Assembly: GCA_034670405.1 (NCBI GenBank)
Contig: JAXDDX010000013.1
Coordinates: forward strand, 3,102,501-3,166,500
Length of the DNA stretch: 64,000 bases
DNA from: Hoplostethus atlanticus
Lineage: Eukaryota; Chordata; Actinopteri; Trachichthyiformes; Trachichthyidae
Reading direction: 5' to 3'
Numbering within the stretch: position 1 is the stretch's first letter; each line of letters begins with the position of its first letter. This document shows, piece by piece, positions 2,064 to 64,000 of the stretch. Both the position numbers and the translations under genes were made by a program. The notes beneath the pieces were generated by a model. The model saw only the letters and a list, made by a program, of their open reading frames with translations, had not been told where the DNA came from and did not search any database.

Positions 2064-2399
2064 CAGCAGGCTGCAAGTCCTGCTCTGCTGTCGCCCTCAG
2101 TTTGTTTTCTTCTTTTCTTTCTTCCGTCTTTGCGTGGCGCCTCTCTCGCTTTGTTTCTTGCTTTCTGTCGTTCTCTCCGGTCCTCTGTCTTTCCCGCTCT
2201 GTCACTCAAAGCGCCGTGTTTTCCATCTTTGGATCTTTTGTGTGCGTGTCTCTCTTTGACATAACTCCGGAGTCTGTTGCCGTGGTTACGCCGTCTTAAT
2301 GTGCCATTGATGTGACTGTATGTATTAAAAGCAACGCTGACTCGCAGCGAAACTTTAGATGTGTTTCTCTCTCTGTATCTATCGCTCTCTCCATCTGTC

Positions 2400-2401
<2 letters not shown>

Positions 2402-2441
<40 letters not shown>
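2402..2441. repeat. (TG)20 microsatellite
   Basis: Pure TG run following a pyrimidine-rich stretch. Confidence 0.97.
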
Positions 2442-2445
<4 letters not shown>

Positions 2446-2474
2446 TGTGCACTGTCTGTCAGCATGTTTTTACA

Positions 2475-2953
2475 AGGTTTTAACCGATATGGGTTTTTAA
2501 TACAGATTTTTGATAAAGCTGTCAGTAGCTAATATTTTGTATTTTGTTTATTCAACATCTTCAAATTTGACCAATTTCATGCCAAAAATGTCCAAAAACC
2601 TAAAAGTATTAAGTGTTTACCTGAGAATTGTATTATTGTCAGGGTGGAAAAGACCATTTAGACCATAGGACACTAAAACACTGACACCCAGGTGAACACC
2701 ACTACTACTACGACTATTATACTACTAACAATAATATAGAAATAATAAAAAATAAAGAATCTGATAAACACATTGCATCAGAATCATTTCAGGTTAAGGT
2801 CTTCCTATAGACAACCAGTTTAGAATTGATGGAATTGATCAATAAATATGTAATCAATCAAACTGCATCATAATGATCACTAACTGGCCTGATTTTAATG
2901 AAAGGCCAATATCGACCTGAAATATTAGGCGAACCGATATCGGTCTAACCCTG
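2475..2953 (+). mobile_element. Family A TIR element, copy 1 (near full length)
   Basis: The left end reads GGTTTTAACCGATATGGG and the right end CCGATATCGGTCTAACCCTG, which are inverted versions of each other. Internal blocks shared with the other copies are TTCAAATTTGACCAATTTCA, GTCAGGGTGGAAAAG, CACTAAAAC followed by CTGACACCCAGG, and ATCAATCAAACTGCATC. At 479 bp this is the longest copy. No transposase frame is present, so it is non-autonomous. The CAGGGTT-type terminus resembles hAT superfamily ends, but that assignment is inference. Confidence 0.8.
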
Positions 2954-4034
2954 CTGTGTGTGTACACGTGTTAGCATGTGCACACACGTGCTCGTAACTC
3001 CGCGTCGGTGTGTCATTATTCCCATCTCCGTCACATCCTCTAGCCAGGCCGGCCTCGGTGCGCGCTCCGTGTGCAGGCTATGAGCTCCAACACAGCGACA
3101 TTACGGCAACATTTCATATCATCCCCTCGACGCCCCGACGTACTTTGGAAGATGACAGTAATTTGGCCAAGACGTCGTCGCGGTTCTCTCCCTTCATATG
3201 GCGACGGTCCCCGGTGCACAGCAACATTACATCAAGACTGGAGTGTGAACGTATGGCCAGCTATTAAATGGCAATCACACACAGAAGAGCTCTTTTATGG
3301 ACGAGCACATTTCTGCTTAATAGCTCTCCGAGCAGAGTCGTCCAAATATGACATTTCAAATGAAAGCCCTCCAAACGCCAGTGCCTATTAAAATCTTTGC
3401 TGAAATCCTTCAATTTGTCAGTTTTTGCGTGATGTGGTTTGTAATAAATTTTGGATTGGCCCTCTTTGAAATTCTCGGCTTATTTATGCGATCATGCTTT
3501 AAAGATTATATGGACTCGTTTCCTCCATCAGCGGTGTCTGGCATCATGCACAGTTAACTCCTACCTACATCACCGCGCTCCGTGGTCCAGGCCCCCCCCT
3601 CGCTATCAGGCCGCTATGGTCGCCGCTATCAGGGGGAACCTCGTGAGCCTCGTCCCACCGGAGCCCCCTAACGGCTGCTTGAGGGAGAAGTTATTGTGAT
3701 CACCGGGGCCCGCCTCTGGGAGTCCTGCTCCACCTTGCCCCATTAATTTCAAGTGCTACTCATATCCTTGGCCCCCATTACTTTCTCTCTCCGCACCCTC
3801 CCCTCCCTTCCATCATCACCTCGGTGCCCCCCAGCCCAATCTCGGTGTTCTCCCGGCTCATTTTGAGCTGTAATTGGACAGCGGTCCCGGGGGAGAGTCG
3901 TCAGCACGCCCCAGCGCCTCTCCAGGGTGGAAGCGCGCCCCGCCATGGTCGATAAGCAGCGCTCGGGGTCACTCGCCCAGCGCTCCCTACTCTGCTAACT
4001 TTCAATGGATAGGATGACTGGCCTATCACATTAA
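2954..4034. other. Repeat-poor, GC-varied block; possible conserved non-coding DNA
   Basis: Between 3000 and 3990 there is little simple repeat, many CpG dinucleotides and AT-rich homeodomain-like words (AATAAATTTTGG, TTATTTATG around 3440-3490). The open frames at 3010-3267 and 3071-3391 overlap in different frames and show no splice logic, so coding is not supported. The block could be an enhancer. Only cross-species alignment could tell. Confidence 0.35.
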
Positions 4035-10630: not shown

Positions 10631-11567
10631 TAAGGGTTAAGGTTAGAATGAAGAGTCAGGGTTAAGGTTAGAACAAAGAGTCAGGGTTAAGGGTTAGAAT
10701 GAAGAGTCAGGGTTAAGGTTAGAACAAAGAGTCAGGGTTAAGGGTTAGAATAAAGAGTCAGGGTTAAGGTTAGAACAAAGAGTCAGGGTTAAGGTTAGAA
10801 CAAAGAGTCAGGGTTAAGGGTTAGAATAAAGAGTCAGGGTTAAGGTTAGAACAAAGAGTCAGGGTTAAGGGTTAGAATGAAGAGTCAGGGTTAAGGTTAG
10901 AACAAAGAGTCAGGGTTAAGGTTAGAATGAAGAGTCAGGGTTAAGGTTAGAATAAAGAGTCAGGGTTAAGGTTAGAACAAAGAGTCAGGGTTAAGGGTTA
11001 GAATAAAGAGTCAGGGTTAAGGTTAGAACAAAGAGTCAGGGTTAAGGGTTAGAATAAAGAGTCAGGGTTAAGGGTTAGAATAAAGAGTCAGGGTTAAGGT
11101 TAGAACAAAGAGTCAGGGTTAAGGGTTAGAATAAAGAGTCAGGGTTAAGGTTAGAACAAAGAGTCAGGGTTAAGGGTTAGAATAAAGAATCAGGGTTAAG
11201 GTTAGAATAAAGAGTCAGGGTTAAGGGTTAGAATAAAGAGTCAGGGTTAAGGTTAGAATGAAGAGTCAGGGTTAAGGGTTAGAATAAAGAGTCAGGGTTA
11301 AGGTTAGAATGAAGAGTCAGGGTTAAGGGTTAGAATAAAGAGTCAGGGTTAAGGTTAGAACAAAGAGTCAGGGTTAAGGTTAGAATAAAGAGTCAGGGTT
11401 AAGGTTAGAACAAAGAGTCAGGGTTAAGGTTAGAATAAAGAGTCAGGGTTAAGGTTAGAATAAAGAGTCAGGGTTAAGGTTAGAACAAAGAGTCAGGGTT
11501 AAGGTTAGAATAAAGAGTCAGGGTTAAGGTTAGAATAAAGAGTCAGGGTTAAGGTTAGAATAAAGAG
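10631..11567 (+). repeat. 25/26-bp minisatellite, about 37 copies
   Basis: The core unit is AGAGTCAGGGTTAAGG followed by (G)TTAGAAYRA. Units come in two lengths (GG or GGG before TTAG) and three tails (AACAA, AATAA, AATGA). By my hand count, 13 units are GG with AACAA, 12 are GGG with AATAA or AATGA, and 12 are GG with AATAA or AATGA. GGG with AACAA never occurs. The two main types often alternate, giving a 51-bp dimer. The GGG units contain two GGGTTA hexamers one base apart, which look telomere-like. Confidence 0.97.
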
Positions 11568-22101: not shown

Positions 22102-22533
22102 CGTTCTGCATTCACTCCTCTCTCCAGTTCACTCTCTACCAGTCTTAGGTCATTTCTCACACTGCCTTCAAACATCCTTAATATGCCATGCACACACACA
22201 CACGCACACACACACACACACACACTGCAGTAGTGATCCAATGGATTAAGCGTGTCAGGGTAATATAGTGCTTTTCTTCATAAACTTGGTTAACACACAC
22301 AGACTATTACTGCTGCACGTTACAGAGTAATGACCATTATTTCCCGGCAATTCCAGAATAAAATCCAACTATTTATATGGTGATTCATTCTGATTGGCTG
22401 GTTGAATGGATTACCATTTAAAGTGACATTTAATGATGATCACTTCCACATTGAAATCAACAACATGTCAACGTGAAAGCTCAACGTTGTGGTCTGGATG
22501 TGGGACGTGCAAATGCTGCATTCATGGTACTTG

Positions 22534-23072
22534 AAAATACCGTTCCCCACAGCTTTCAGATATAAATACTACTAGAAAATACCATTCACCACAGCTTTCA
22601 GGTATAAATACTACTAGAAAATACCATTCACCTCAGCTTTCAGGTGTAAATACTACTAAAAGATACTATTACCTCAGCTTTCAGATGTAAATACTACTAG
22701 AAAATACCATTCACCTCAGCTTTCAGGTGTAAATACTACTAAAATATACTATTACCTCAGCTTTCAGATATAAATACTACTAGAAAATACCATTCACCAC
22801 AGCTTTCAGGTATAAATACTACTAGAAAATACCATTCACCTCAGCTTTCAGGTGTAAATACTACTAAAATATACTATTACCTCAGCTTTCAGATATAAAT
22901 ACTACTAGAAAATACCATTCACCACAGCTTTCAGGTATAAATACTACTAGAAAATACCATTCACCTCAGCTTTCAGGTGTAAATACTACTAAAAGATACT
23001 ATTACCTCAGCTTTCAGATGTAAATACCACTAGAAAATACCGTTCACCTCAGCTTTCAGAAGTAAATACTAA
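22534..23072 (+). repeat. 42-bp minisatellite, about 13 copies, with trimeric super-repeat
   Basis: Units share CAGCTTTCAG and TAAATACTACTA and are 41-42 bp long. Three subtypes are distinguishable: B (CCATTCACCACAGC, tail GGTATAAATAC), C (CCATTCACCTCAGC, tail GGTGTAAATAC) and D (ATACTATTACCTCAGC, tail AGATATAAATAC or AGATGTAAATAC). From the second unit the order is B-C-D, C-D, B-C-D, B-C-D, so the array expanded partly as about 125-bp triplets. The end units are diverged. Confidence 0.96.
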
Positions 23073-29834: not shown

Positions 29835-29970
29835 TCTTTATTTATCCAGGGGAAGTCGGGACCTTCTGCCGCCGCCCACTGTTGGGGTTCAGTGCCTTGC
29901 CCAAGGACCAACCTCGGTGGTGGTTGGTCGCTCCTGGGATTCAAACCGCTGACCTTTCTGTCAGTGCGCT
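29835..29970 (+). mobile_element. Dispersed fish repeat fragment (GCCTTGCCCAAGG type)
   Basis: Order of motifs: TCTTTATTTATCCAGGGG, GGGGTTCAGTGCCTTGCCC, AAGGACCAACC, then CTGGGATTCAAACCGCTGAC. This series is frequent in fish genomes, and its last part resembles a tRNA B box. Overlapping frames on both strands (29754-30016) are therefore not genes. Confidence 0.6.
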
Positions 29971-36074: not shown

Positions 36075-37126
36075 GTGCACTAATGAAGCTGTTCTCTCCT
36101 CTCTTGTTTCGTTCCTGGCTCGGTGAAACATGCATAAATCATAATAAACAGAGAGATGAATTTTTAATCAGCAGCTCCCTGCCGGTGTCTTCAGCCCCCT
36201 TGCCCCCCCGCGGGGAGGAGAGGCTGTGATGTGCCAGGTATATGGAGCCGGAGCTGGCAGGGCCTCCTCTGGGAGGGCTGCTCGCTGAGACATGCCTGTC
36301 TGGGCTGCCTCTTCCTGGGCATGATCCGCTGGACCGGGGCCTTGCCTCTGGAGACCGGGGCCGGCCTAGCTCCAACCCTTGCTCTATATGTGTGGATGGC
36401 TTGGGCGAGGCTAGTCGGGGAAGACCTGTTAACGCTGCTGAAGCTATGACCTCCAGTCGGTAAGCATCACGAGGCAAACAACAACCATTAGAAACTAGAC
36501 TATTTTACAGAAAGCCGTCTTGTGTTTTTTTTCTTTACATTTTCTTGGTGAATAGATGAAACTTGCCCGTCGTTCCTCCCTGTCGTTTTGTGAGATGGAG
36601 CCCTAAATATCCTGATCAGTTCAAAACAGTTTCCAAAGCTGTTGTACTAAACATTTTTACTGTGGCATCATATCATATCATATATTCTTTGGGTTGAAGT
36701 TGAACTCCTGCACGTCACCATCCATCAAAATGCTTGCTGGGTATCATATATCTTCATGTGAACTTGCATCAGTTTGATACCACTTAGTACGATGTGACCC
36801 CGTCAAGAGTTTCTCTGGGTTTACTCTCTGCAGTTTTCACATCTAGCGGGCAGGGCAGGACGGGGGCCATGCTGTGCCGTGCCAGGCTGTGCCGTGCCAA
36901 AGAGAGAAGATGTGTAATAAATGTGAATAGTGGGCATTCTGGCAGAGCGGACCTTTGCCAGGCCCGGCGGCCATGCGGGCAGGCCAGAGCTGGACTGGGC
37001 TACGCTCGCTCCAAAGCTGTAGTATTAGACTCAAATAGGCCCACAACACAACAACATGAGCTGAGCTGTCACAGGGGATTACTTCAGCTAGGCAAGCCAG
37101 CGGGGTCTCTACTGCTCTGCCGCTCT

Positions 37127-37327: not shown

Positions 37328-37335
37328 TATAAAAA
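37328..37335 (+). promoter_or_regulatory. TATA box candidate
   Basis: TATAAAAA matches the TATAWAAR consensus exactly. A start site would be expected about 30 bp downstream, near 37358-37365, leaving a purine-rich leader of about 120 nt before ATG 37481. Its value rests on the open frame and donor that follow. Confidence 0.4.
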
Positions 37336-37480
37336 GGCAGGCAGCGGAGACACACACACAAACAAGAGGAGGAAGAGGAGAGAGGGGGAAAAAAAAACAG
37401 AAAACACAGAAGAAGAAGAAGGAGGAGAAGAGAGAGCAGTAGCCAGTAGCCGGGGAAGGTGTGTGTGTGTTTGAGCACTC

Positions 37481-37599
37481 ATGTTGGAGCACTCGTCCGA
37501 GCTGGGCTTTGTGGGGAGTGTGTGTGTCGACACCATATGCTGCCCCCCTTCTGCAACCCCCGGCGCAGGATCCATGAGGGCCGACGAGTTGCTGCTAAG
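37481..37599 (+). CDS. Candidate alternative first coding exon (partial CDS)
   Basis: ATG at 37481 opens a frame starting MLEHSSELGFVGSVCVDTIC and ending ...MRADELLLR, followed by AAG|GTACAC, a plausible donor. The coding part is 119 nt (39 codons plus 2 nt), the same end phase as the candidate exon at 49149-49225. A TATA box lies 153 nt upstream of the ATG. The frame is not repeat-derived, unlike nearly all others here; it stops being meaningful exactly where the (CA)n run begins. I do not recognise the protein. Against it, the Kozak context (CTCATGT) is weak. The next exon is not in view. Confidence 0.4.
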
Positions 37600-37621
37600 G
37601 TACACACACACACACACACAG

Positions 37622-37653
<32 letters not shown>

Positions 37654-37765
37654 ACACCCATTTTTCTGACCCAGATGCTGCGTGCATCCCTCTTGGGCAT
37701 CGCTGTGCTTCCAACCGGGGTGTGTTGTTGCGTTGCTGTGTTGTGTTGTGTTGTGGTATCAACAC

Positions 37766-37814
<49 letters not shown>

Positions 37815-37947
37815 AGATGCTGGCTTATTCCTCCATTTGAGAGGATTTGAGCGGGACGTCTGGGATGGTTGCTCCTAACAGGTTTTACTGCAATGCCTCT
37901 GTCTGTGCACTCTCTCTCCCCCCCACCTCCTACTGCCGTCTATTGTT

Positions 37948-38013
<66 letters not shown>

Positions 38014-38225
38014 GGGTTGTTGTGTTCGATGGCAGGAGATTTCCTCCTTGCTTTCCTGCTACTGTTCACCCATTCAAGCGTCCTATGCTAACATCCCAAG
38101 CTTGTACTCCTTTTTTTTTGTTCCCTCTTCCACCCTGTCTCTTTGGCTCCGCCCATCCCATGGTGTTGTAGAGTTTTATGTCTGTCTGGGACAAGCAGTG
38201 GCAAAGTGGTAAAGTATTAGAAAGT
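37600..38225. other. Microsatellite-dense intron-like DNA
   Basis: CA at 37603-37651, TTGTG repeats near 37740, TG at 37767-37812 and CT at 37950-38006. Nothing else is recognised. Confidence 0.6.
37950..38006. repeat. (CT)28 microsatellite
   Basis: Pure CT run. Confidence 0.97.
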
Positions 38226-38490
38226 AGGTCTGGACCAATACTTCAGTTTGCCTTCACCTGCATTGATCCTCATGAGGCATTTTGATTGGATTCCACACAA
38301 GGATGGATGTTTTCTTCTTCTCGTCCTCGGTTTCAACAGAGAGTTTTCAGATGATTTTCCACCCTGCCAAGAATACTTTTTTTTTTCCATGAAGAAGGTC
38401 AGATTTAATTAAATATTGGCACAAGTATCATCAATTAGCAGCTTCAATCCAAAAATATCGCTATCATCACAGGCCTTGAGAAACTGGTAT
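38226..38490 (-). mobile_element. Family A TIR element, copy 7 (diverged)
   Basis: GTCTGGACCAATACTTCAG at the left, then reversed core words AACAGAGAGTTTTCAG, CCACCCTGCCAAG and AGCAGCTTCAATCC. The right terminus is degraded. Confidence 0.65.
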
Positions 38491-40129
38491 CCAATGAAGC
38501 AAAAGTAATAATATTTAAAAAGGCAAAGGAGCTTTTGGAGGAGACAGTGAGGCTTGTTATATGGCATCCACTGTTATAGGAGGAAGAGCGATACATGGGG
38601 AAGACTCCATTTTAGGATGTGGGGCGGCCATCCAACCGCAGCAGGATTTGACATTTTCCCAATCAGCTAACAGCCTGGATCTGCTCCTGTCTCTTTTATT
38701 TTCGGTTCCGTCTTATTCCTCCTCCTCCTCCTCCTCCTCCTCCGTGGGCCGGTGTCGGAGAGAAACACTGGTTTAGATCCGGATAGAAAGAAAAAGGAGG
38801 GGAAGGGGTAGAAAGGAAGAGCTGAGAAGAGTGACAGGGAAGAGGAAGAGGAGGAGAGGGAGCGATGAAGAGGAAGAGGAGGAGAGAGATAGGGGGGGCA
38901 GTGTGACAATAAGACAGCCAAACAATGGAGGTGCTCGGCTGTTCTCCGCCTTCCTCTCCCTCCTCCTCCTACCTTTTATTTTTACCCCCTCTCCTCCTCC
39001 TCCTCCTCCTCCTCCTCCTCCTCCCTCTCACAAAGGCGCCACTTTATTCCACTTTATTTCAAAGTTGCTGTTGCTGGTAAAATCCTCACAATGAGATGAT
39101 TGCGGTGATCATTCACAATTTGTTGGAACTCCCTCTCTTATACCTGATCAGGAAAAAACAGCCATGCCTGAGGTTGAGTTGTTTTGCGACGGTGTTGACA
39201 TATTTCATTGATGTACGCAGCAGTCATTTATTGCACTATAATCTAATGACTGAATCGGTGAACGCTTCAATGAAACCGGGTGCGCTCCATTTGCAGTTTC
39301 CCAGTCACAAATATAATTTTCAACCGTTTCCGCCTTCCCGGCGTTTGAGGCCACGCGCAGATCGAGTGACTGTGACTGGGTTGAGGTAGCGTCAGGTACA
39401 CCACGGGAGAAGGCAGTAGCAGCGCAGCATCACCCAGCAGAGCAGCAGGAGAACGTAGGTAACCTGGGGGAGGAAGGATGTAGGTAGGACTCAATAATAG
39501 TTCAATCAGTGTGTTTTCTCATGGGAGTGTGTGTGTGTGTGTGTGTTGACAGTACAGCTGAGCCAGTCTCCTCCTGCACCGCCCCTCCCCTGGGCATGCT
39601 GGCAGTTTAACCAAGCACCCCCTTGCAAAGTGTGCCTATCTAATGGTGTGGAGGTTATTAGCCTTCTATTAGAGAGATGGCTGTTGGTTTAGAGTTACTG
39701 CTTCTCCCTCTCATTACCCCGGATGTGTCGGGGCAATGGGCTTTTAAAATGGTCCCCCTAAACCCCCCCCCGAAACCCCCACCCCGCCCTCACGGATATG
39801 CTGAACCGGCCGACGGAGCCCCGGCCCGGCACGACGAATGGAGCGCACCTCATCTCTCCACTACGCCAATTTAATCTGCCGAGCACCTTTTCAATCAGAG
39901 GGTGTCAGGCAGGGCCGCTCCCAACACGGCTCTAATACAATGCATGGACACACACACACACACACACGCGTAGGATGGGACGCACCAGAGCACATTGGCA
40001 AACACACACACACACGGCATGCACACCACACACACACACGGATCAATACTTAAAAGTGCAATCATACAGGTGACAGTGAGTATAGGTTTATTTGCCCTCG
40101 CCTACTTGTATATTGGCGTAGGTTTTTTT

Positions 40130-40131
<2 letters not shown>

Positions 40132-40178
<47 letters not shown>

Positions 40179-40336
40179 GGGGTGTACGAAGGGAGAGGGG
40201 GCACGTGTGAAAGAAAAGGGAGTGAACTGAGTGTGGGAGCTTGCAGGTACATGAAATGTGTGAATATGTGCGTGAAATGAATTGAAATGGGTGTGAGAGT
40301 GCATCTATTTGTGGGGGGGATGTGCATGTGCCTCCC

Positions 40337-40369
<33 letters not shown>

Positions 40370-40470
40370 ATGCATGTGGTTGCACGTGCTTGTGTGCGAC
40401 TGTAGCTTCCATTGTGTGTGTACATGTGCGGTTGTTGTGCTGTATTGTTGCCTGCATTCTCTCTCTACGT

Positions 40471-40517
<47 letters not shown>

Positions 40518-40526
40518 TGTGTGTGT
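40132..40526. repeat. Cluster of three (TG)n microsatellites
   Basis: TG runs at 40132-40177, 40339-40368 and 40472-40526 with degenerate TG-rich linkers. Frames on both strands here are repeat artefacts. Confidence 0.95.
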
Positions 40527-41437
40527 TGGTTGTTATCAGAATGACACCATCCTGCTCTCTCTCCTGCAGCCCCAGAGGATCAGTGGAGCTGCACCAGTTT
40601 CAAATGAAAATAAATGAGAGGCAGTGACCGCTACTGCCTGGGTCCCACTTTAATGAGGAAAAGGAGCAGAGAGGAGGGAGGGGAGGAGAGGGGAGGGAGG
40701 AGTGTGAAAGAGAGCGAGCGAGGGAGGGAGGGGCGATATGGGGGGGGATGGGTGAAGGCAGAGGAGAAATTGGAAAGTGAGGGAATCACAGAGAGTTGGT
40801 GATGAAGGGGCAGAAAGAGACGAAGGAGGGAGGGGGGGTGTAATGAATGGAGGGCCTCGCTGTCACTGATGCGATGGCCAATTACAGGTGGAGCGCAGGC
40901 CGATGCACCGCCGCTGGATATCCCTCCACCCTGCCTCCTGATACCCGCCCCTTAAATCGACCTAATGTTAACTGCACTCAACACTTCCTCACGTTACTTA
41001 CCACTGTGACGTGATCCATATCGTGATGGACGTTTCATGTAGAGCACTTAAAGGTTTCGACGATACCAGCGTTTCGATTCGTCGCTTCCTGTGTGCGGGG
41101 GAAGATTTCCTGCCAGTGACAACGGCCAGCTTTTCATTTGGACAAATAGGGCGAAGCTACCGTTTTTAAATTGAAGCTTTACATCTTCCCTCTATGGGCT
41201 CAGACAACCTCTCCAACCTTTGATGAAACGTGTTCAGAACCCCTGTGAACTCAAAAGCACGTGGCGGTCAAGCAAAAAAAAAAAAAAAACGTTCCTGAAA
41301 GGGTTGACGTTTTGGAGATACGCCGGTTTCATCCGACAGCCGGCGATATGCTCCGACCTCAGTGAGGCTCAGCGTCGTCCAGCCTAGACCATTAAAACCA
41401 GCAGGCAGCAGCACAGTGTAGACAGGGGGCCGCACAA

Positions 41438-41501
41438 TGTGTGTGTGTGTGTGTGTGTGTGAGAGGGGGAGCCTTACAACGTGTGTGTGAGTGTGTGTGT
41501 A

Positions 41502-41539
<38 letters not shown>

Positions 41540-41657
41540 TCATGTCGAGACCACCGGTACATTAGTGTCTGCTGGCAGGAATGTGTGAGGGTCAGTGCAC
41601 AGGTCTCGCTATTTGCTCTACAATGTTGGACTTGATCCGAATGTTCTATAGCAGAGG

Positions 41658-41694
<37 letters not shown>

Positions 41695-41714
41695 TGTGTG
41701 TGTGTGTGTGTGTG
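41438..41714. repeat. (GT)n, (GA)n and (TG)n cluster
   Basis: GT at 41438-41461, GT then GA at 41478-41535 and TG at 41660-41714. Confidence 0.95.
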
Positions 41715-41743
41715 TCTACATGCATGTGTACCTATGTGTGTAT

Positions 41744-42008
41744 TAGGGTTTGACCGATATGGGTTCTTAAAGGCCGATACTGATATTTATTTATTGAAGC
41801 TGCCAATAGCGACTATTAAATATCTTTAAATTTGACCAAAAAATCCCCAAAAATAAAAAGTCTGAAGTGTTTCAGAGTGTATGGTATTGATCAATTGTAC
41901 AATAAATATGCAATCAATCAAACTGCCTCATATCCATTATGTCAGATTATGCCAATATCCCAATATCAGCCAGATATATCGGCAGACTGATATATCAGTC
42001 TAACCCCT
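41744..42008 (+). mobile_element. Family A TIR element, copy 8 (internally deleted, both ends present)
   Basis: Left AGGGTTTGACCGATATGGG, right GATATATCAGTCTAACCCC, inverted to each other. It keeps ATCTTTAAATTTGACC and ATCAATCAAACTGCCTC but lacks the CACTAAAAC block, consistent with an internal deletion. Confidence 0.8.
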
Positions 42009-42124
42009 GTGTGTGGCAGATAAACAGGTCAGTGAGCATGTGGAGGCTGCAGCTCCACAGGTAGGGCTAGCATGCATGTTATCTGGAACACAGTGTCCTA
42101 ACCAGGGTCCAGCCTGGACCGATA

Positions 42125-42345
42125 ACAGACTGGGAGAGAGAGAGGGAGGAGAGGGAGGAGAGGGAGAGGGAGAGGCGGAGGATGGAGGAGAGCGTGAAAT
42201 AGAGGCGAGGGGAGGGGTGGAAAAAATATGGGAATGAGATTGAAGATGGAACAGTGAGCGGGGACACATCGACAGGAGGGGTGGCGGCAGGGATGGAGAG
42301 AGTGTGAGAGAGAGAGGGAGAGAGAGGGGGGGAGGGAGTGCCCAT
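42125..42345. repeat. Polypurine block
   Basis: Mostly GA/GGA on the + strand. The overlapping frames on both strands (42000-42467) are composition artefacts. Confidence 0.8.
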
Positions 42346-42453
42346 CCATTTCTATTTAGTTTTGGGTCTGGGGTCTCTGCTTGAGCGAATAAGGACCTAG
42401 AATTGAGAATAGACCTAGACGCCACTATCATTTCATTTGGGCAGCGATTCTTC

Positions 42454-42466
42454 ACACACACACACA

Positions 42467-42518
<52 letters not shown>

Positions 42519-42553
42519 CACACACACACACACACTCACACACACACACACAC
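42454..42553. repeat. (CA)n microsatellite, 100 bp, with CTCA interruptions
   Basis: CA run interrupted by CTCA at several points, indicating an older, stabilised array. Confidence 0.96.
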
Positions 42554-43157
42554 GCAGATCAAAATGTGTTTTCTGGCGAGCGGCTGGTTCAGCGAGGATG
42601 AGCGGTGGCAGTCGGGGTCTGTCTGGTGCCGGGCTCCTCACATGTCCACTTAGGCTCAAACACAGCTGCTCGCTACCGTGAATCATTCATGAGGCCGCCA
42701 TTAAAAATTCACGTGTGAAAATGCCCACGCCGTCAGCTACCCACAATCCTCTGCTGTCGGTCGGAACGCAGACGGGGAAGCAGGCGGGAGGGGCTGGACG
42801 ATACTTTTGGGGTGCCTATTGCGCAACGTCTGACATTCCCCTCTCTCCGTCTTGGCTAGTTTGATCCCGTCTCTTTGTCTCCTTCCCTCAACCGACCACC
42901 ACCCTCCTCCTCCTCCTCCTCCTCCTCCTCCTCCAGCTTTCTGAGTGATCGATTTGTATTGTTCGGGCAGCTCAGCGCAGCCTCCGCCCCCCATCCCGCC
43001 CCCCACCCCACCCAGCCCGAGGTGAGAGAAACAAGCCAGCAGATGAAGATGGAGAAAAGATAGAAATACCTACACAAAGGGAAGAAGAGAGAGAGAGAGA
43101 GGAAGAGGAGAGAGTCTGAGAGAGGCAGACCTTGACATCGCCGAGCTCTCGGAGAAC
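42554..43157. other. GC-rich, CTC-repeat and purine-rich DNA; possible promoter area
   Basis: Contains (CTC)n at 42904-42933, a C-rich stretch near 42985-43015 and a purine-rich leader at 43075-43130. CpG is raised at 42560-42860. It may be a promoter for the short ORF that follows, but no TATA box is seen. Confidence 0.3.
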
Positions 43158-43274
43158 ATGGAGCCCTCGGGTGAGGAGACGGAGGAGAGAGGAGCGTCGA
43201 CGGGTCAGCATGGGAACAACAGAGCAGAACAACAGCAACAACAGGGAAGAAAAAAATCAAATACAATACAGTAA
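43158..43274 (+). CDS. Short ORF with strong Kozak context, doubtful
   Basis: GAGAACATGG has A at -3 and G at +4. The ORF gives MEPSGEETEERGASTGQHGN, then a Gln run, and stops after 38 residues. The frame is open upstream to 43047, with DLDIAELSEN just before the ATG. GTGAGG at 43171 could be a donor, in which case only 13 coding nt would be used, in a different phase from the other two candidate first exons. Purine-rich DNA is naturally short of stops, so chance is a fair explanation. No match recognised. Confidence 0.25.
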   Translation: MEPSGEETEERGASTGQHGNNRAEQQQQQGRKKSNTIQ

Positions 43275-43971
43275 TAAGCATTCAATTACACGTGACCTTT
43301 GACCCAGAAGGAAATACTGCTCTTGGCCTGGAGGATGTCTTCTGAGTCAGTGGAGGAAACTGGGAAACAAAATGCAGTTTGGAGCAAATGTTTTTCTTCT
43401 GTACGTCCATGACCAGACCCGAACCCGAACCTGACCCGGACTTCTTTTACTTGCCTACATTCAACTGCCGGTCTATAGACGTGGTGTGAAAATGGCATAA
43501 TCTGAGCTCCAGGGTTTGTTTTGTTAGACTGTGTTGCCAAATTTGAACTTTTCAGCATTGTAATGGAGAGCAAAGATCAAGCAAAGGCTCAAGCTGAAAA
43601 CAGCGGAAATCTATTTGGAAGCCGTATCGGCAAATATAAAATCACAGCCGAGCCGCCTTGGGGAGCAACGTTCCCTCTGAGATGGTTTTAACAGAAAACC
43701 ACTACAAATACACGACAACAGTCCGACATGTGCAGCCACTGACTACCAAAGGAATTTCATCCACCCGCAGTTCCTTTACAAAATCTGATTTTAATTGGTA
43801 AAGTGCAATTTATACCATGTTGTTCCTCATTTAATGGTTATGCCACCACAGTAAATGATCACCAGTCTCTTGGCCAACTGCATTTTATTGCATTGATAAC
43901 AGATTTGCATTCATTCTGCAGCCATCAAATATTTTATGGATAAGAAATATTGTTAATTTTTTAAAATGTTG

Positions 43972-43988
43972 CTGCAGTAGGGGGCGCC
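43972..43988 (+). promoter_or_regulatory. CTCF-core-like motif (best of three)
   Basis: TGCAGTAGGGGGCGCCC matches the CTCF core (CCASYAGRKGGCRS) well, with CAGTAGGGGGCGC in register. Such sites often mark domain boundaries near alternative promoters. Motif evidence only. Confidence 0.45.
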
Positions 43989-44442
43989 CTGCTGCCCTCA
44001 CTGACTGATCACCACTGTTTGTAAGCCTCCATTGTCCCAGGGTCGTCAGGTTAAGGTCTGTCCTCCCTGCTAGGGCCAGTTTGCTCATGGTCATGCTGTT
44101 GGATCGGTGCAGAGGCGTGTGACTCGTTGTTTTTTGGTCTGTGTTGGTTTCTTTTGCACATAGAATAATACCGTCTCTGAGGATGCAATCGTCTGGATTT
44201 TAACATTTTTTAAATTTAAATTTCGTATTAACAAGCAACATTTTACTCCGAACATACCTGCAACTGTACTTGCTCATTGAAAAGGTTTCATTTCCATAAG
44301 TAGTTGGCTGCCCATGACTACGGGGGAAGTCTGTCTTAATGTTTTATTAATGGGCTGCACCAAAGGAAGCATCAATTTTGTTTGGCAGGGATTGTGGATT
44401 TGTTGAGAATTTGAAGCAAACATTTGATTGCTTGATTGCTTT

Positions 44443-44454
44443 CTGTGTGTGTGT

Positions 44455-44491
<37 letters not shown>
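44443..44491. repeat. (GT)n microsatellite
   Basis: GT run with one GTAT interruption. Confidence 0.96.
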
Positions 44492-44493
<2 letters not shown>

Positions 44494-44615
44494 CGTGTAC
44501 ATGAGGCCATGCATACCAGTCTTACCACGTGGTACTTGCTAAAAATCCCAACGCATTTTCACTGCCACAGCTGAGATGCCTGCACATGGTGAGACAGGTG
44601 TTCGCAAAGCCCTCG

Positions 44616-44619
<4 letters not shown>

Positions 44620-44667
<48 letters not shown>
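44620..44667. repeat. (CA)n microsatellite
   Basis: Pure CA run of about 48 bp. Confidence 0.96.
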
Positions 44668-44668
<1 letters not shown>

Positions 44669-44821
44669 TCCTCAGTATCCCTCCTATCATTGCTGCTGTC
44701 ATCAAACCTCTGAAATGAAGTTCATCATGAATGCCTGGTGTCAGCCTCCACTTGGTTTCTACTGTAGATTTATAGGTGAATGTTATCCTAGTCTTCTTCA
44801 GCTCTGCTCAATCGCTGCGTT

Positions 44822-45516
44822 CACACTGCAGCTGAAAGCGGCCCAGTTCTGATTTTTTTTTTTCCTCACGTGACACATCTGATGTTTTCTACTCATGCAG
44901 CAAAAAGCTGCATGGAGTCACATTTTTTCAATTCTGACCTGGACCACGTGGGTATGTGGTACACAACTGGACCCCTCCATGTGCTGGAAGCCTACATGTG
45001 ACTTCTATTACAACACTTAAATCACAATTTGTCAGTCTTGCCGTGACAATAACTACGTCTGTGTTCATACGACGGACAATTATGCTCAATTCCGTATTGT
45101 GTGTCGTACATCTACTTTGGTCAAGCTAGCTCACATGGACGGTGCTCATCGATGGCTCTTTATTTACTAGATTTTGCTGCATTTGCTTGCAAATCTGTGA
45201 CTTTTTCATCGTCGGGTGATGCAGGCCAGAAAAAACTATAACAGTTGTTGTCTATCCCGCGTGAAGTTCTACTGTCGGCACGAAATAATGACAACCGTCT
45301 CAAGTTCATGATGTAAACTTGACCGGTAACCATGGCAACGCTGGAAAAGAAAATCTGATTTGAACGTTCGCGCCTGCCTGAGAATTAGATTTAGTAGCAC
45401 ATGTCAATGTGGTCTGGGTCGCTTTTTGCTGTTCACGTTGATTTGAAACCATCAGATTTGTGTCACTTTTGAGGGGGAAAAAAAATCAGAATTGAGACAC
45501 TTTCAGCTGCAGTGTG
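44822..45516 (+). mobile_element. TIR element of 695 bp (CACACTGCAGCTGAAAG ends)
   Basis: The left end CACACTGCAGCTGAAAG, then CCAGTTCTGATTTTTTT, is mirrored at the right end by AAAAAAATCAGAATTGAG, then CTTTCAGCTGCAGTGTG. The outer 17 bp are identical and the TIR extends about 45 bp with a few mismatches. No transposase frame, so non-autonomous. Elements beginning TTCACACTGCAGCTGAAAG are familiar in fish genomes. No clear target-site duplication was seen. Confidence 0.88.
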
Positions 45517-45846
45517 TCTAGTTTGTCTCGCCTGATAATTTTGGCTCCATGGCAGCTTGGCTGAGTTCCACTCAACGATGGAAAGACAGACATAGAGCTG
45601 ATTGATTGGCATTTGGGGAGACGCCTCAATTCTGTCAAAACCCATAGGCACATACCGTCACCGAGACGGAGACGTAGGTACAAATATGGATGTGACGTGT
45701 TCTGTCACAACGTAGCTGTCAGTTCACATCGGTACGGGATATGGGTTACAACCTGGAATAGATATCCAAAAATATAAGACATGAGCAGCGTGAAGTGCCT
45801 GCAGTGTGATCGGGGGCCCAAAGCGGCACAGTGGTTTATTATATAA
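45517..45846. other. Unique non-coding DNA
   Basis: No repeats of note. The minus-strand frame at 45724-45969 overlaps the candidate frame below and is treated as its shadow. Confidence 0.4.
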
Positions 45847-46008
45847 TGTCCCATACCACCCCCCCGGTCTCTGTGGGGTCAGGTGCAGGGAGACATGCTG
45901 CACAGTCGCCACTCCAGGGACACCGTGAGCCCCGAGGCGCTGATGTCGGATCAGCCTTTCCCCATCCATACCCCGACCTCAGTCCTCACAAGTAAACAGG
46001 CGAGCTGA
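45847..46008 (+). CDS. Short coding-like frame, doubtful exon
   Basis: After a stop at 45844-45846 a frame runs to TGA at 46006-46008. From ATG 45895 it reads MLHSRHSRDTVSPEALMSDQ and continues in mixed, non-repetitive composition for 37 residues. GGGGTCAG at 45874-45881 could be a 3' splice site, and ACAAGTAAAC at 45988 contains a possible donor. Composition is protein-like and unlike the repeat-driven frames elsewhere, but the polypyrimidine tract is weak and no family is recognised. It may equally be conserved non-coding DNA. Confidence 0.22.
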   Translation, partial: CPIPPPRSLWGQVQGDMLHSRHSRDTVSPEALMSDQPFPIHTPTSVLTSKQAS

Positions 46009-47358
46009 CCCCCGAGCAGAGCCCCGGGCCACGTCCCAGCCACGCCGCACACTTGCCCTGCTGTATGTGTGCACGCTGAGCACATTCCATGTTTTTTTTT
46101 TTCCCATTGACCCAGATACTCATATTCTTCCCCCCAGAGAGCCGCCTCTCCCGGCCTAAGAGAGGCTCATTATTTTACTGGAGTGCCTTCCTCCTTTCTC
46201 CAACGGAGGGGAGGAAGTGGGGCAAACTGGTAGATGGGCTACACAGGGGTGCATTCAAGCCCACTTTGGTTCCACGGGGAGGCATACTGGATCCACACAA
46301 TTAGCGTGGCGTAAAATAGAGTCAGCAAATTTGCAGCAAATTACGGACTGGTTCATTATTACCGGGCTATTCCCCACGCGTAGCCGCACCTCTCCAAATT
46401 GGGCCAACTCATTTGATTTTAAATCATCTAACTGCCCATGCTTTTATTAAGTCACTACATTGAATGATGTGATATTCTATTGTAATAGCATGCGGTTTAC
46501 CATACAGCCTTTATTGATGTGAGTATCATCTGCTTGTATAGCAAGAATACACAAAAATGTTTATTCACTAGACGAGACAAACACTTATAGTACTTAGTGT
46601 TGAGTGTTTACCAAAGTATCATATTTTCAAACTCAGCATAGGTTAAATACAGCTTGTGTCTCCATCACTGTACAACCCTATACAAACACCAATAAACATG
46701 TAGTACACATTCATGGTTAAAAATAGATTCTCGGATATACAAGGTATGGGAGAAATGTACACTATCAAACCCAGAAATGATAGTGTGGTGTTTTACTCAT
46801 TGATCTCTAAAGGAAACGTGTGATGTCGCAATCACACCTGAAGACCAACCGAGGTCGAACCGTCGTTTGTCTGGTGGATAAGTGGTGTTGTGAGGCAGAG
46901 CGCTGGTGTGCGGATCTACTTTTATATGGATTTATCTTAACTATTGTCCAACACCAGTGAAAGCCTCGGATGTGCGTGTCACTCTCTGCCCATTGATCCA
47001 CACTGTGCCTCGCCGTAGCCTAAAGTAGATCTTGTATTTCTGTATCACTATAATGGAGAGCAAGCAGCAAAGTGCCTGAAATCCATTCAGAAGTCATGGC
47101 GTAAGAAAGAAATCACACCAGGGGAGCGTTCAAGACCGATGTCCCCTCTGAGCTGAAAGTTTGGTGCCCTATGACTAATAATTTCTCACATTCACCAAAT
47201 AATAGTCTACTGATTCATCAGCCGGTGCTCCACTTTGTGATCGGTATTGGTGCTATTATATTAGATGAAGGTTTTAGTGAATTGACGCCCCTGGGTGAGC
47301 ACTTAGGTCAGGGTGTGGGTGAGTGCCCACACCTTGCCTTACCAAGTACTGCACCACA
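46009..47358. other. Repeat-poor non-coding DNA; CNE-like at 46120-46460
   Basis: 46120-46460 holds GAGGCTCATTATTTTACTGG, CGTGGCGTAAAATAG, GTTCATTATTACC and CTCATTTGATTTTAAATC, with no simple repeat; it is an enhancer-like candidate. 46460-47358 is AT-rich and unrecognised. The frame at 47171-47380 enters the minisatellite and is rejected. Confidence 0.4.
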
Positions 47359-48736
47359 GTTAAAGATATCTAATGGCTGAGGACATGTAATGGTTGAAGA
47401 TATATAATGGTTAGCTATGTTAAAGATATCTAATGTAATGGTTAAGGAAAACGAATGGTTATGGTTAACTAGTGTTTAAGGATATCTAAGGGTTAACGAT
47501 ATCTAATAGTTACGGATATCTAATGGTTAAGGTTAACTAGTGTTTAAGGATATCTAATGTTTAAGGATATCTAATAGTTAAGCATAACTAGTGTTTAAGG
47601 ATATCTAATAGTTAAGGATAACTAATGTTTAAGGATATCTAAGGGTTAACGATATCTAATAGTTAAGGATATCTAATAGTTAAGGATAACTAATGTTTAA
47701 GGATATCTAAGGGTTAACGATATTTAATAGTTAAGGATATCTAATAGTTAAGGATAACTAATGTTTAAGGATATCTAATAGTTAAGGATATCTAATGGTT
47801 AAGGTTAACTAATGGTTAAGGATAACTAATGTTTAAGGATATCTAATAGTTAAGGATATCTAATGGTTAAGGTTAACTAATAGTTAAGGATAACTAATGG
47901 TTAAGGATATCTAAGGGTTAAGGATATCTAATGGTTAAGGTTAACTAATGTTTAAGGATATCTAAGGATTAAGGATATCTAATAGTTAAGATATCTAATG
48001 GTTAAGGATATCTAATAGTTAAGATATCTAATGGTTAAGGTTAACTAATGGTTAAGGATATCTAATAGTTAAGGATAACTAGTGTTTAAGGATATCTAAG
48101 GGTTAAGGATATCTAATAGTTAAGGATATCTAATAGTTAAGGATAACTAATGTTTAAGGATATCTAAGGGTTAAGGATATCTAATAGTTAAGGATATCTA
48201 ATGGTTAAGGTTAACTAATGGTTAAGGATATCTAAGGGTTAAGGATATCTAATAGTTAAGGTTAACTAATGGTTAAGGATATCTAATGGTTAAGGATATC
48301 TAATAGTTAAGGTTAACTAGTGTTTAAGGATATCTAAGGGTTAAGGATATCTAATAGTTAAGGATATCTAATGGTTAAGGATAACTAATGTTTAAGGATA
48401 TCTAAGGGTTAAGGATATCTAAGGGTTAAGGTTAACTAATAGTTAAGGATAACTAATGGTTAAGGATATCTAAGGGTTAAGGATATCTAATGGTTAAGGA
48501 TATCTAATAGTTAAGGATATCTAAGGGTTAAGGATATCTAATGGTTAAGGTTAACTAATGTTTAAGGATATCTAAGGGTTAAGGATATCTAATAGTTAAG
48601 GATATCTAATGGTTAAGGTTAACTAATGGTTAAGGATAACTAATGTTTAAGGATATCTAAGGGTTAAGGATATCTAATAGTTAAGGATATCTAATGGTTA
48701 AGGTTAACTAATGGTTAAGGTTAACTAATGGTTAAA
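47359..48736 (+). repeat. 17-bp minisatellite, about 80 copies, with palindromic cores
   Basis: The basic unit is TTAAGGATATCTAATGG. The middle hexamer alternates among GATATC, GTTAAC and GATAAC, the first two perfect palindromes. The 3' tail varies (TGG, TAG, GGG, TGT). Units with GATAACTAATGT are nearly always followed by a GATATCTAAGG-type unit, showing multi-unit expansion. The array ends 412 bp before the ATG at 49149 and directly abuts the GC-rich leader. The 5' end is degenerate and blends into 47359-47460. Confidence 0.96.
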
Positions 48737-49075
48737 CATCAGCTGCAGCGCTGTGCGCCACGCCTCCCCGACTCGGCACCTGGTTCTCCAACAGTCCGAC
48801 AGTTGCGCTGTAACAGAGCGGATTTTCAGACAGGCTTGGTGGACAAGAACAAGACAAAACCGAATGGGGGAGAGGAAGAGGAGAATGTGACAACTGCAGG
48901 AGGCGGACGGAGTGTGTGTGGCTGGCTGTACTGCCTTTGGGGAGGCCTCGGCTCTTGCACCTGTCCCTCTCCGTCTCCGCGGCCAGGCGCAGTTTGGGCG
49001 AGAGCGACGCTCCTTTATTTATCAGGCAGAGCGCACAGCGGCGGAGGCGCACACACATACTCTCTCTCTCTCTCT

Positions 49076-49118
<43 letters not shown>

Positions 49119-49148
49119 GTACACACACACACAGGGCAGGCAGGCAAC
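48737..49148 (+). promoter_or_regulatory. Candidate promoter and 5' leader of the 49.1-kb exon
   Basis: GC-rich, CpG-containing DNA appears abruptly after the AT-rich minisatellite. CTCCTTTATTTATCAGG near 49010-49022 gives a weak TATA-like element. Transcription could start near 49045, giving a leader of about 100 nt that includes CT and CA runs (49061-49132). The position just upstream of a well-formed ATG and donor supports a promoter. No experimental data. Confidence 0.4.
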
Positions 49149-49225
49149 ATGACTTCATCCTACAATCTGGATTTTCTGCCCGATATGATGGTGGAGAGCC
49201 GCTTGCTTGTTCCAGGAGACAGAAT
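49149..49225 (+). CDS. Candidate first coding exon (partial CDS), best genic signal
   Basis: GGCAACATGA gives an A at -3. The frame reads MTSSYNLDFLPDMM then VESRLLVPGDR, 25 codons plus 2 nt, followed at 49226 by GTGAGT, a strong consensus donor. If the donor is ignored, the frame soon stops. The peptide has mixed, natural-looking composition with no signal peptide or membrane segment, as in N-termini of nuclear or cytosolic proteins. The residual phase (2 nt) equals that of the candidate exon at 37481-37599, which suggests alternative first exons of one gene. I do not recognise the protein and assign no symbol. The next exon must be to the right, not found in the remaining 14.8 kb. Confidence 0.5.
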
Positions 49226-50504
49226 GTGAGTCGTTTGGCTTCTCTTTCCCTTTTCGCTTCTGGTTTCTCTTTTTTTTAAATTCTGAAAAGCAGCTGTCCG
49301 ATGTGGAAATGTTGCTTCGCTTGTGGGTATGTGACTGGAATCGGGGTCAGAATTAACGCTGTAGTCGGCGTGGTTGTATCTCTGGTATTGTGTTAGTTAT
49401 GGTTTGTTTTTATTAATATCCGCCGATAAATTATACGGGGATCATAGAAAGAGGAGCGCCCGGGGTTGTTATCAGCGATAGACGGGATGCTGATGAATGA
49501 ACGCCATTATGGGGAATTAATGATATCGCCGTGAATAAACCTTGTCTTTATGAAGACATCTATTATAGGGTGTCGTAAAAATTGTTAGCCCGTCAAGTCG
49601 ACTCTCACAGCATTTGGAGCATCGGCTTCCCACCTTGCTCCGTGGAATAGACGAGGGGAAGTTGCTTTCATTTGCGGCAGCCGCCCATGATCATTTCCCG
49701 GGGTGTGAGCGGTGGGTTTCGGACGATACAGTACGGGAGCGCACCATGCTGAGACATTTACAAAAAAACGAGAGAGCCGATCTCTCCATTCTCCTCTTGC
49801 CAACAGAAATGCAAGGTGGAGGAGGAGGAGGAGGAGGAGGAGGACGGGGGGGCTGAGTCATATGAGACTGATTTAACTCCGCCAAAGCCCCTTCTGTTTG
49901 TCGTTTTGCCCCCTGATCGCCTATCCGCCCCACTTTTGACACTTTGACGATATGAAATGCCACGGGGTCTGTCCGCCTGCCTGCGGTCGCAACGCTGCAA
50001 AGCTTTCGCAAAAAAAACAAAAAAAAACCCAACAACCATCATTTATGGTGAGCGGGAAAGAGCAGAAACAACACAGGGGCTTGTTGAAGCCCCGTAGGAA
50101 TGTGTGGATGACTGGTGTCCCGTGTGTTTTAATTGGATTTGCGGTGCGTAATTCACTTACGGTCCGGAATTCCTAGAACCGGCACAAAGGGAGGTTTTCA
50201 TCCCGACATCACGATCATGCTTCCTCCCCACTGCATGTTCCACTTGTGTCTCCCCGGCTTACAGCGCTGAGTTGTTGATGGGCCATGATGTTCCAGTGGT
50301 GAACATGCATCCTGTCACTTCCTCCCGTGCTCTCGTGAGGCTCTGTCCTTGGGTAGCTATATGCAAAAACTACAGTTATATGGATGTATGTTGGGATGTT
50401 GCATTTGACTTGACGTAAAATAATGTCACATAATGGAGTGTACCTGTGTCCCTTATGAGCTGTAGTAATGCATTTTAAGATATTATACAAATATAACATT
50501 TTAC
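49226..50504. other. Presumed intron 5' end, with CNE-like block
   Basis: 49385-49590 is repeat-poor with TTATTAATATCC, CGATAAATTATACGG, GGGGAATTAATGATATC and GTGAATAAACC, an enhancer-like candidate close to the exon. (GGA)n lies at 49818-49843. 49940-50210 is unique, moderately CpG-rich, without exons. Confidence 0.4.
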
Positions 50505-62372: not shown

Positions 62373-64000
62373 CTGCTTATTGCTTTTAGAGGATAGTTGC
62401 TGGGATTGTCTGGTTTGGCTGCTGTATTGGGGAAATGGTGTTTGGTCTGCAGGGGTTGTTAAGTCTGAGAGCTGGTGTGTGTGTGTGTGTGTGTGTGTGA
62501 GTGGTGTGTGTGTGTGTGTGTGTGTCAGTGAGCAGAATGGGCTGCCAGAACTGCCGTGGCTGCCATAGGCCTGACAGGATGACAGCTGTCACCAAGGAAA
62601 TAGAGAGAGGAGGAGGAGAGAGGAGACACTGCCTCAAGGGAACACACACTCAGACAGGGCCTGGAAGTCGTGTGCGTGTGTGTGTGTGTGTGTGCGCGTG
62701 TGTGTGTGTGTATATGCACATGTTGGCATGCTTGTGTGTGTGTGTCCATGTTTGCACACACGTGTGTGTACGAGAGAGAGAGAGAGCGAGGTAGCATACC
62801 TGATACGAGTATAATTGGTTTGTGGTTCGGCAATGTACACACTTATCTTCACATCAGCAATTACAGTATGGGCATTGAAAAGGAACAAAGGACAATGTTG
62901 GTTTATGTGTTTACAAGGTGTGTGTGTGTGTGTGAGTGCACTGTGTGTGTGTGTGTGTGTGTTCTACGTATTGAGTTTGGTCTGCTTCATTAGTTTATAT
63001 TGTAAAATCGATGGGCCCCATTGTGGCGCGACCTGCCTCTATTCTTGTACTCTGTGATATGCTTGAGTGTGTGTGCCTAGTGTGGGTGTTCAAGTGTGTG
63101 TGTGTGCCCAGTAATAGTGACCCTGGGGAGAGGGTCTGACACGGGGGGGCGGGGGAGGAGCCTCCTAAGTGACCTGGAAAGCAGACCCATCCATCAACTC
63201 TCTTTCCTCTCAATCCTTCATTCCCTCTGTCTATCTCTCTTCTGTAGGGCTATTACTGCAATCACTGCTCTTAAAGCTGCAGCAAGGACCACCTCTGTGT
63301 GTGTGTGTGTGTGTGTGCACGTGCATTCCAGGGCTTGCTTCTTAACCCCTCTTAGCAGTACAAAGTTGTGCGTGTTAAACTCAGCCCGGCTCCTCTCCTC
63401 GACGCCTAATCGTTTCCGAAAGGCGGCGAGGAGAGGAAGACGGGAACGGAATAGGAGAGGACAGAGGACTAATGCAGAGAGAGAAGACGAGGATGAGAGG
63501 ATGTTAGAGTGGGGGAGGATGTTGGGTCTGAGGTGAATTCGGGGCAAAAGCTAAGGGATGCAGAGGAGGGTAAACCCACCTGAACACTTCACCCAATTCA
63601 CCACAATTCACCACCATTCACACATATAAGAGGATAGGATGTCATGTAACGTGATGTCAGTAAACTAGCAAAGGTTTTCTTCCAGCGACTGATGATTGTG
63701 GCTGCTAATGCACGTGTATTTTTAGAGCCCCTCTATAAGTGCCGGGCTCTGTGTGTTTGCTGGTTCGTTGGTGCGTAGCGCTTTCTGCACCGCACAGTGC
63801 TGAGGGAAATTACGGCCGGCACTGTTTCAGCCACCAGAGCCCTAAGTGCCCCGCATGAGGGAAATCCAGTGTGTCTCGTACAGCAGGCGGTACAGTCCTC
63901 CCAAGCACGAGCAGCTGTAGGTTGGTGCACGGTGCGTTCACAGACCAGGAAGTAGCTCGGTGATAACACAGTTTCGCTCGCAACCATCAAGCTCGCCTAG
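62373..64000. other. Non-coding DNA to window end, TG-rich
   Basis: TG runs at 62476-62525, 62672-62712, 62919-62962 and 63296-63318, GA at 62772-62787 and a purine-rich stretch 63420-63530. 63540-64000 is unique; the minus frame at 63733-63990 has no recognisable domain or splice site. Confidence 0.5.

Follow-up and report, generated by a model that had tools for sequence, protein, structure and literature searches.

Probable alternative first exons 1a and 1b of a celf2 gene in a 64-kb genomic stretch of Hoplostethus atlanticus

CELF2 is an RNA-binding splicing regulator, and UG-rich RNA is a ligand of the CELF proteins. According to PMC4736020, three isoforms of CELF2 are set apart by the first exon (1a, 1b or 1c), and the primer list given there combines three first-exon forward primers with a single exon-2 reverse primer. 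The forward primer for exon 1a encodes MRNEEL and that for exon 1b DFLPDMT, while the CELF2a cloning primer from the same source encodes MRCPKSA; in PMC3368720 a mouse CUGBP2 cloning primer begins with MRCPKS (both cloning primers translated by eye). The authors of PMC4736020 concluded that, in human muscle cells, dystrophin exon 45 was bound by CELF2a and not by CELF2b or c, and in a study of cerebellar development Celf2 was listed among the 20 genes with most start-site switching events (PMC5470264). In CELF1, as described in PMC8742084, the extra start codon AUG1 (27 extra residues) belongs to an internal, alternatively spliced exon 5 of transcripts originating from two upstream promoters; the 27-residue difference between the long and the short Celf1 is also given in PMC7125149.

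The window analyzed here, i.e., the whole stretch of 64,000 nt, contains two plus-strand frames which, judging from their peptides, are very probably the alternative first exons 1a and 1b at the 5' end of a celf2 gene (Table 1). The upstream frame (exon A) opens with ATG and comprises 119 nt, that is 39 codons with AG left over in front of GTACAC, while the downstream frame (exon B), also opening with ATG, comprises 77 nt, that is 25 codons with AT left over in front of GTGAGT. The coordinates, frames, equal phases and TATAAAAA box reported in an earlier, sequence-only reading of the window were all reproduced, and its proposal of two alternative first exons giving two N-termini agrees with the CELF2 first exons 1a, 1b and 1c described in PMC4736020. 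Its description of both peptides as unrecognised was wrong, since they match CELF2 exons 1a and 1b, and an unrecognised gene was rejected on the same grounds. Most likely, the two-start arrangement is of an already described kind, and the window holds one more species' version of it.

Table 1. Candidate features of the putative celf2 5' region (window coordinates)
Feature	Position	Strand	Basis
TATAAAAA box, putative core promoter element of exon 1a	37328..37335	+	lies 153 nt ahead of the exon 1a ATG
Putative celf2 exon 1a, coding part: MLEHSSELGFVGSVCVDTICCPPSATPGAGSMRADELLL + AG, phase 2	37481..37599	+	best-scoring tblastn match of the human CELF2 query; its MRCPKSA and MRNEEL parts are encoded by published primers
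Predicted exon 1a 5' splice donor AAG/GTACAC, weak to moderate	37600..37605	+	approximate matrix 0.50, rank 323/4457 GTs
(TG)22 tract, in the predicted intron after exon 1a	37768..37811	+	168 nt past the exon 1a donor
Likely promoter region of exon 1b, rich in CpG	48751..50250	.	CpG o/e ranks 6, 4, 2 of 253 (1-kb windows from 48751, 49001, 49251)
Putative celf2 exon 1b, coding part: MTSSYNLDFLPDMMVESRLLVPGDR + AT, phase 2	49149..49225	+	unique 6/7 match to DFLPDMT of the published human exon 1b primer
Predicted exon 1b 5' splice donor AAT/GTGAGT, strong	49226..49231	+	approximate matrix 4.38, rank 29/4457 GTs

The tblastn search of the window with a long-form N-terminus of human CELF2 gave its best match at 37481-37597 (33.9 bits, E 1.4e-6), an alignment that takes in all 39 complete codons of exon A, starting at its initiator Met, with 46% identity and a 4-residue gap, while 300 shuffles of the same peptide reached at most 25.8 bits. 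The CELF queries were unreferenced sequences chosen with the window peptides already in view; of the exon 1a query, printed sequence confirms MRCPKSA and MRNEEL only. The published MRCPKSA corresponds to ICCPPSA in exon A (4/7, by eye) and the published MRNEEL to MRADEL (4/6), the latter likeness being not specific by itself, since 6 places in the window score as high. Compared as DNA, the primer for exon 1a agreed with exon A in 14 of 21 positions, fewer than the 16 at its best place elsewhere in the window. A comparison of the exon A peptide with solved structures gave no match.

The similarity to human CELF2 (CUGBP2, NAPOR, ETR-3) extends to the peptides of both exons 1a and 1b. Exon 1a shows divergence, including the 4-residue gap against the human query. 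At 37535-37555 an isoleucine codon (the first of ICCPPSA) is present where the human and mouse CELF2 exon 1a clones have a start codon (MRCPKS). With ICCPPSA in the place of the published MRCPKSA, exon A lacks this internal start. A more far-reaching proposal, which we regard as very improbable, would be that the exon 1a isoform of this lineage lost the internal start and diverged, leaving only the extended N-terminus or a later start at MRADEL possible, and that the (TG)22 tract would let CELF2 adjust exon 1a usage by binding to the pre-mRNA of its own gene. Such tracts are common here, the one in question being 1 of 39 (TG)10+ tracts in the window.

The TATAAAAA (TATA) box occurs once on the plus strand of the window, at 37328, against a chance expectation of 0.74 per strand, so that its count is within chance. 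Ranking of 253 1-kb windows by CpG o/e with dinucleotide repeats masked revealed no enrichment near exon A (ranks 121, 130 and 161 for the windows starting at 36501, 36751 and 37001, respectively). The placement of both frames in non-repetitive DNA, claimed previously, held for the exons themselves, neither of which is of low complexity, but repeats lie close by: a CA repeat directly follows exon A on its 3' side, and upstream of exon B there are CT/CA tracts and a minisatellite. The latter occupies 1.3 kb (47436-48735), consists of approximately 77 copies of a 17-bp unit, TAATGGTTAAGGATATC, and ends about 400 nt upstream of the exon B ATG.

For exon B, the comparison with print covers seven residues of human exon 1b. 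DFLPDMM, encoded from 49170, was the sole 6/7 match to the published human DFLPDMT across the six frames of the window, while among 40 rearranged heptapeptides 31 reached 4, nine reached 5 and none reached 6. An unreferenced exon 1b peptide also matched exon B; it conflicts with the printed sequence and was set aside as evidence. The DNA of the exon 1b primer matched exon B in 16 of 21 positions, tied with two other places in the window, so that neither first-exon primer is decisive as DNA, and the human exon 1c primer produced no distinctive match anywhere in the window (top score 14/20, with 21 places within one of the top). The LDFLP-MMV core, scanned for as a degenerate pattern in contigs of prokaryote genomes and of viruses, gave 0 matches, as expected for a vertebrate gene, and a text search of a collection of papers for six CELF N-terminal peptide strings found no match.

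Whether exon B has its own promoter is less sure than its identity. It lies in one of the most CpG-rich parts of the window (Table 1), while a search for TATAWAW in 48500-49200 ahead of it found none. An arrangement with exon B as an internal 5' exon bearing an alternative start codon and spliced from upstream non-coding first exons, like the AUG1 exon of CELF1, would still belong to celf2 and overlaps with the model preferred here. Its precedent is the CELF1 extra-start exon, an internal exon 5 behind two promoters (PMC8742084), and it is consistent with the likeness of exon B to the CELF1 query peptide and with acceptor-like sites upstream at 48987, 49030 and 49026 (ranks 64, 70 and 111 of 4412 AGs with an approximate matrix). 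These ranks are, however, modest given the many CT tracts of the window, exon B lies in a CpG-rich stretch, and 1a, 1b and 1c of CELF2 are termed first exons in PMC4736020, which together make an internal exon B unlikely.

The likeness to CELF1 also bears on the identity of the locus, which might represent celf1, or a decaying celf2 duplicate, rather than a working celf2 gene, a possibility partly overlapping with the preferred model. The best tblastn match of the CELF1 query N-terminus was indeed located in exon B (49155-49196, 23.9 bits, 57% identity over 14 residues), and the sequence of exon A is fairly diverged. The CELF1 match is weak alone, since 300 shuffles reached up to 25.4 bits. 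CELF1 differs in that its query sequence has no counterpart of the window's exon 1a and in that its AUG1 exon is an internal alternative exon (PMC8742084). With exon A matching CELF2 exon 1a, exon B carrying the DFLPDM of human CELF2 exon 1b, and both exons open and followed by GT donors, celf1 or a decaying duplicate appears quite improbable. That both frames are chance open frames and that no gene is present is extremely improbable, despite the mechanical pattern being common in the window. Counting phase-2 donors located 74-300 nt behind an in-frame ATG with an approximate donor matrix, 43 on the plus strand, donor A itself among them, and 40 on the minus strand (83 in total) scored at least as high as donor A, while for donor B the numbers were 5 on the plus strand (donor B counted) and 1 on the minus strand. 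The pattern of an open frame plus GT is by itself weak and not beyond chance; the pair is lifted above chance by the resemblance of the peptides to CELF2 exons 1a and 1b. The chance reading was rejected on this homology: the two frames resemble two first exons of a single known gene, point in one direction and both end in phase 2.

A shared exon 2 calls for just such a pair, first exons of a known gene that lie on one strand and both end in phase 2. The phase-2 donors of the window are thus compatible with one common exon 2, and for human CELF2 the first-exon isoforms are published (PMC4736020). The complement of the exon-2 reverse primer in the primer list of that paper encodes VYQINVL, which belongs to the first RNA-recognition motif of CELF2 and is present in structure 4lmz. 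Searches of the window for this exon 2, made with an unreferenced exon 2 stretch and with the part of it present in the solved CELF2 structure 4lmz, gave no credible match; the best candidate, 29864-29965, was rejected, being on the minus, i.e., wrong, strand with 34% identity and E 0.027. If exon 2 is located to the right, the intron after exon B would consequently exceed 14.7 kb. If exon A were spliced into exon B at one of two trial acceptors (49120, 49135), the end of B would be in phase 0; the better-ranked acceptor-like sites at 48987, 49026 and 49030 would leave 1, 1 and 0 nt over, respectively (by arithmetic). As none of these sites leaves the 2 nt needed by the common exon, A and B should be alternatives to each other.

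In the proposed model, two promoters approximately 11.7 kb apart would drive two mutually exclusive coding first exons, with exon 1a behind a TATA box and exon 1b inside a CpG-rich region. Both end in phase 2 and would join a single exon 2, which is predicted beyond position 64000 and would encode the beginning of the first RNA-recognition motif. The two isoforms would have the same protein body and differ in the short N-terminal peptide, while the choice of the promoter would set the place and time of each isoform. What the sequence itself gives are the frames, phases and donors and the likeness to exons 1a and 1b; transcription, splicing of A and B to exon 2 and tissue control are what we infer from this arrangement. 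The analysis probably locates the start of a celf2 gene, and it indicates that the arrangement with two starts described for human CELF2 is also present in this species. Different activities are reported for the first-exon isoforms, and isoform-specific CELF2 function could be studied in an animal that has both exons.

Scans of the window with Rfam and for tRNA genes gave 0 matches. Apart from the repeat upstream of exon B, the window includes two more minisatellites: one at 10633-11567, with approximately 37 copies of a 25-bp unit, AGGGTTAAGGTTAGAATAAAGAGTC, and 93% matches, and another at 22528-23071 with a 42-bp unit, for which periods of 83 and 125 bp were also given. A second CpG-rich stretch, to which no gene is assigned, was observed at 2251-4000, where the 1-kb windows starting at 2251, 2501, 2751 and 3001 occupied ranks 3, 5, 7 and 8 of 253 by CpG o/e.
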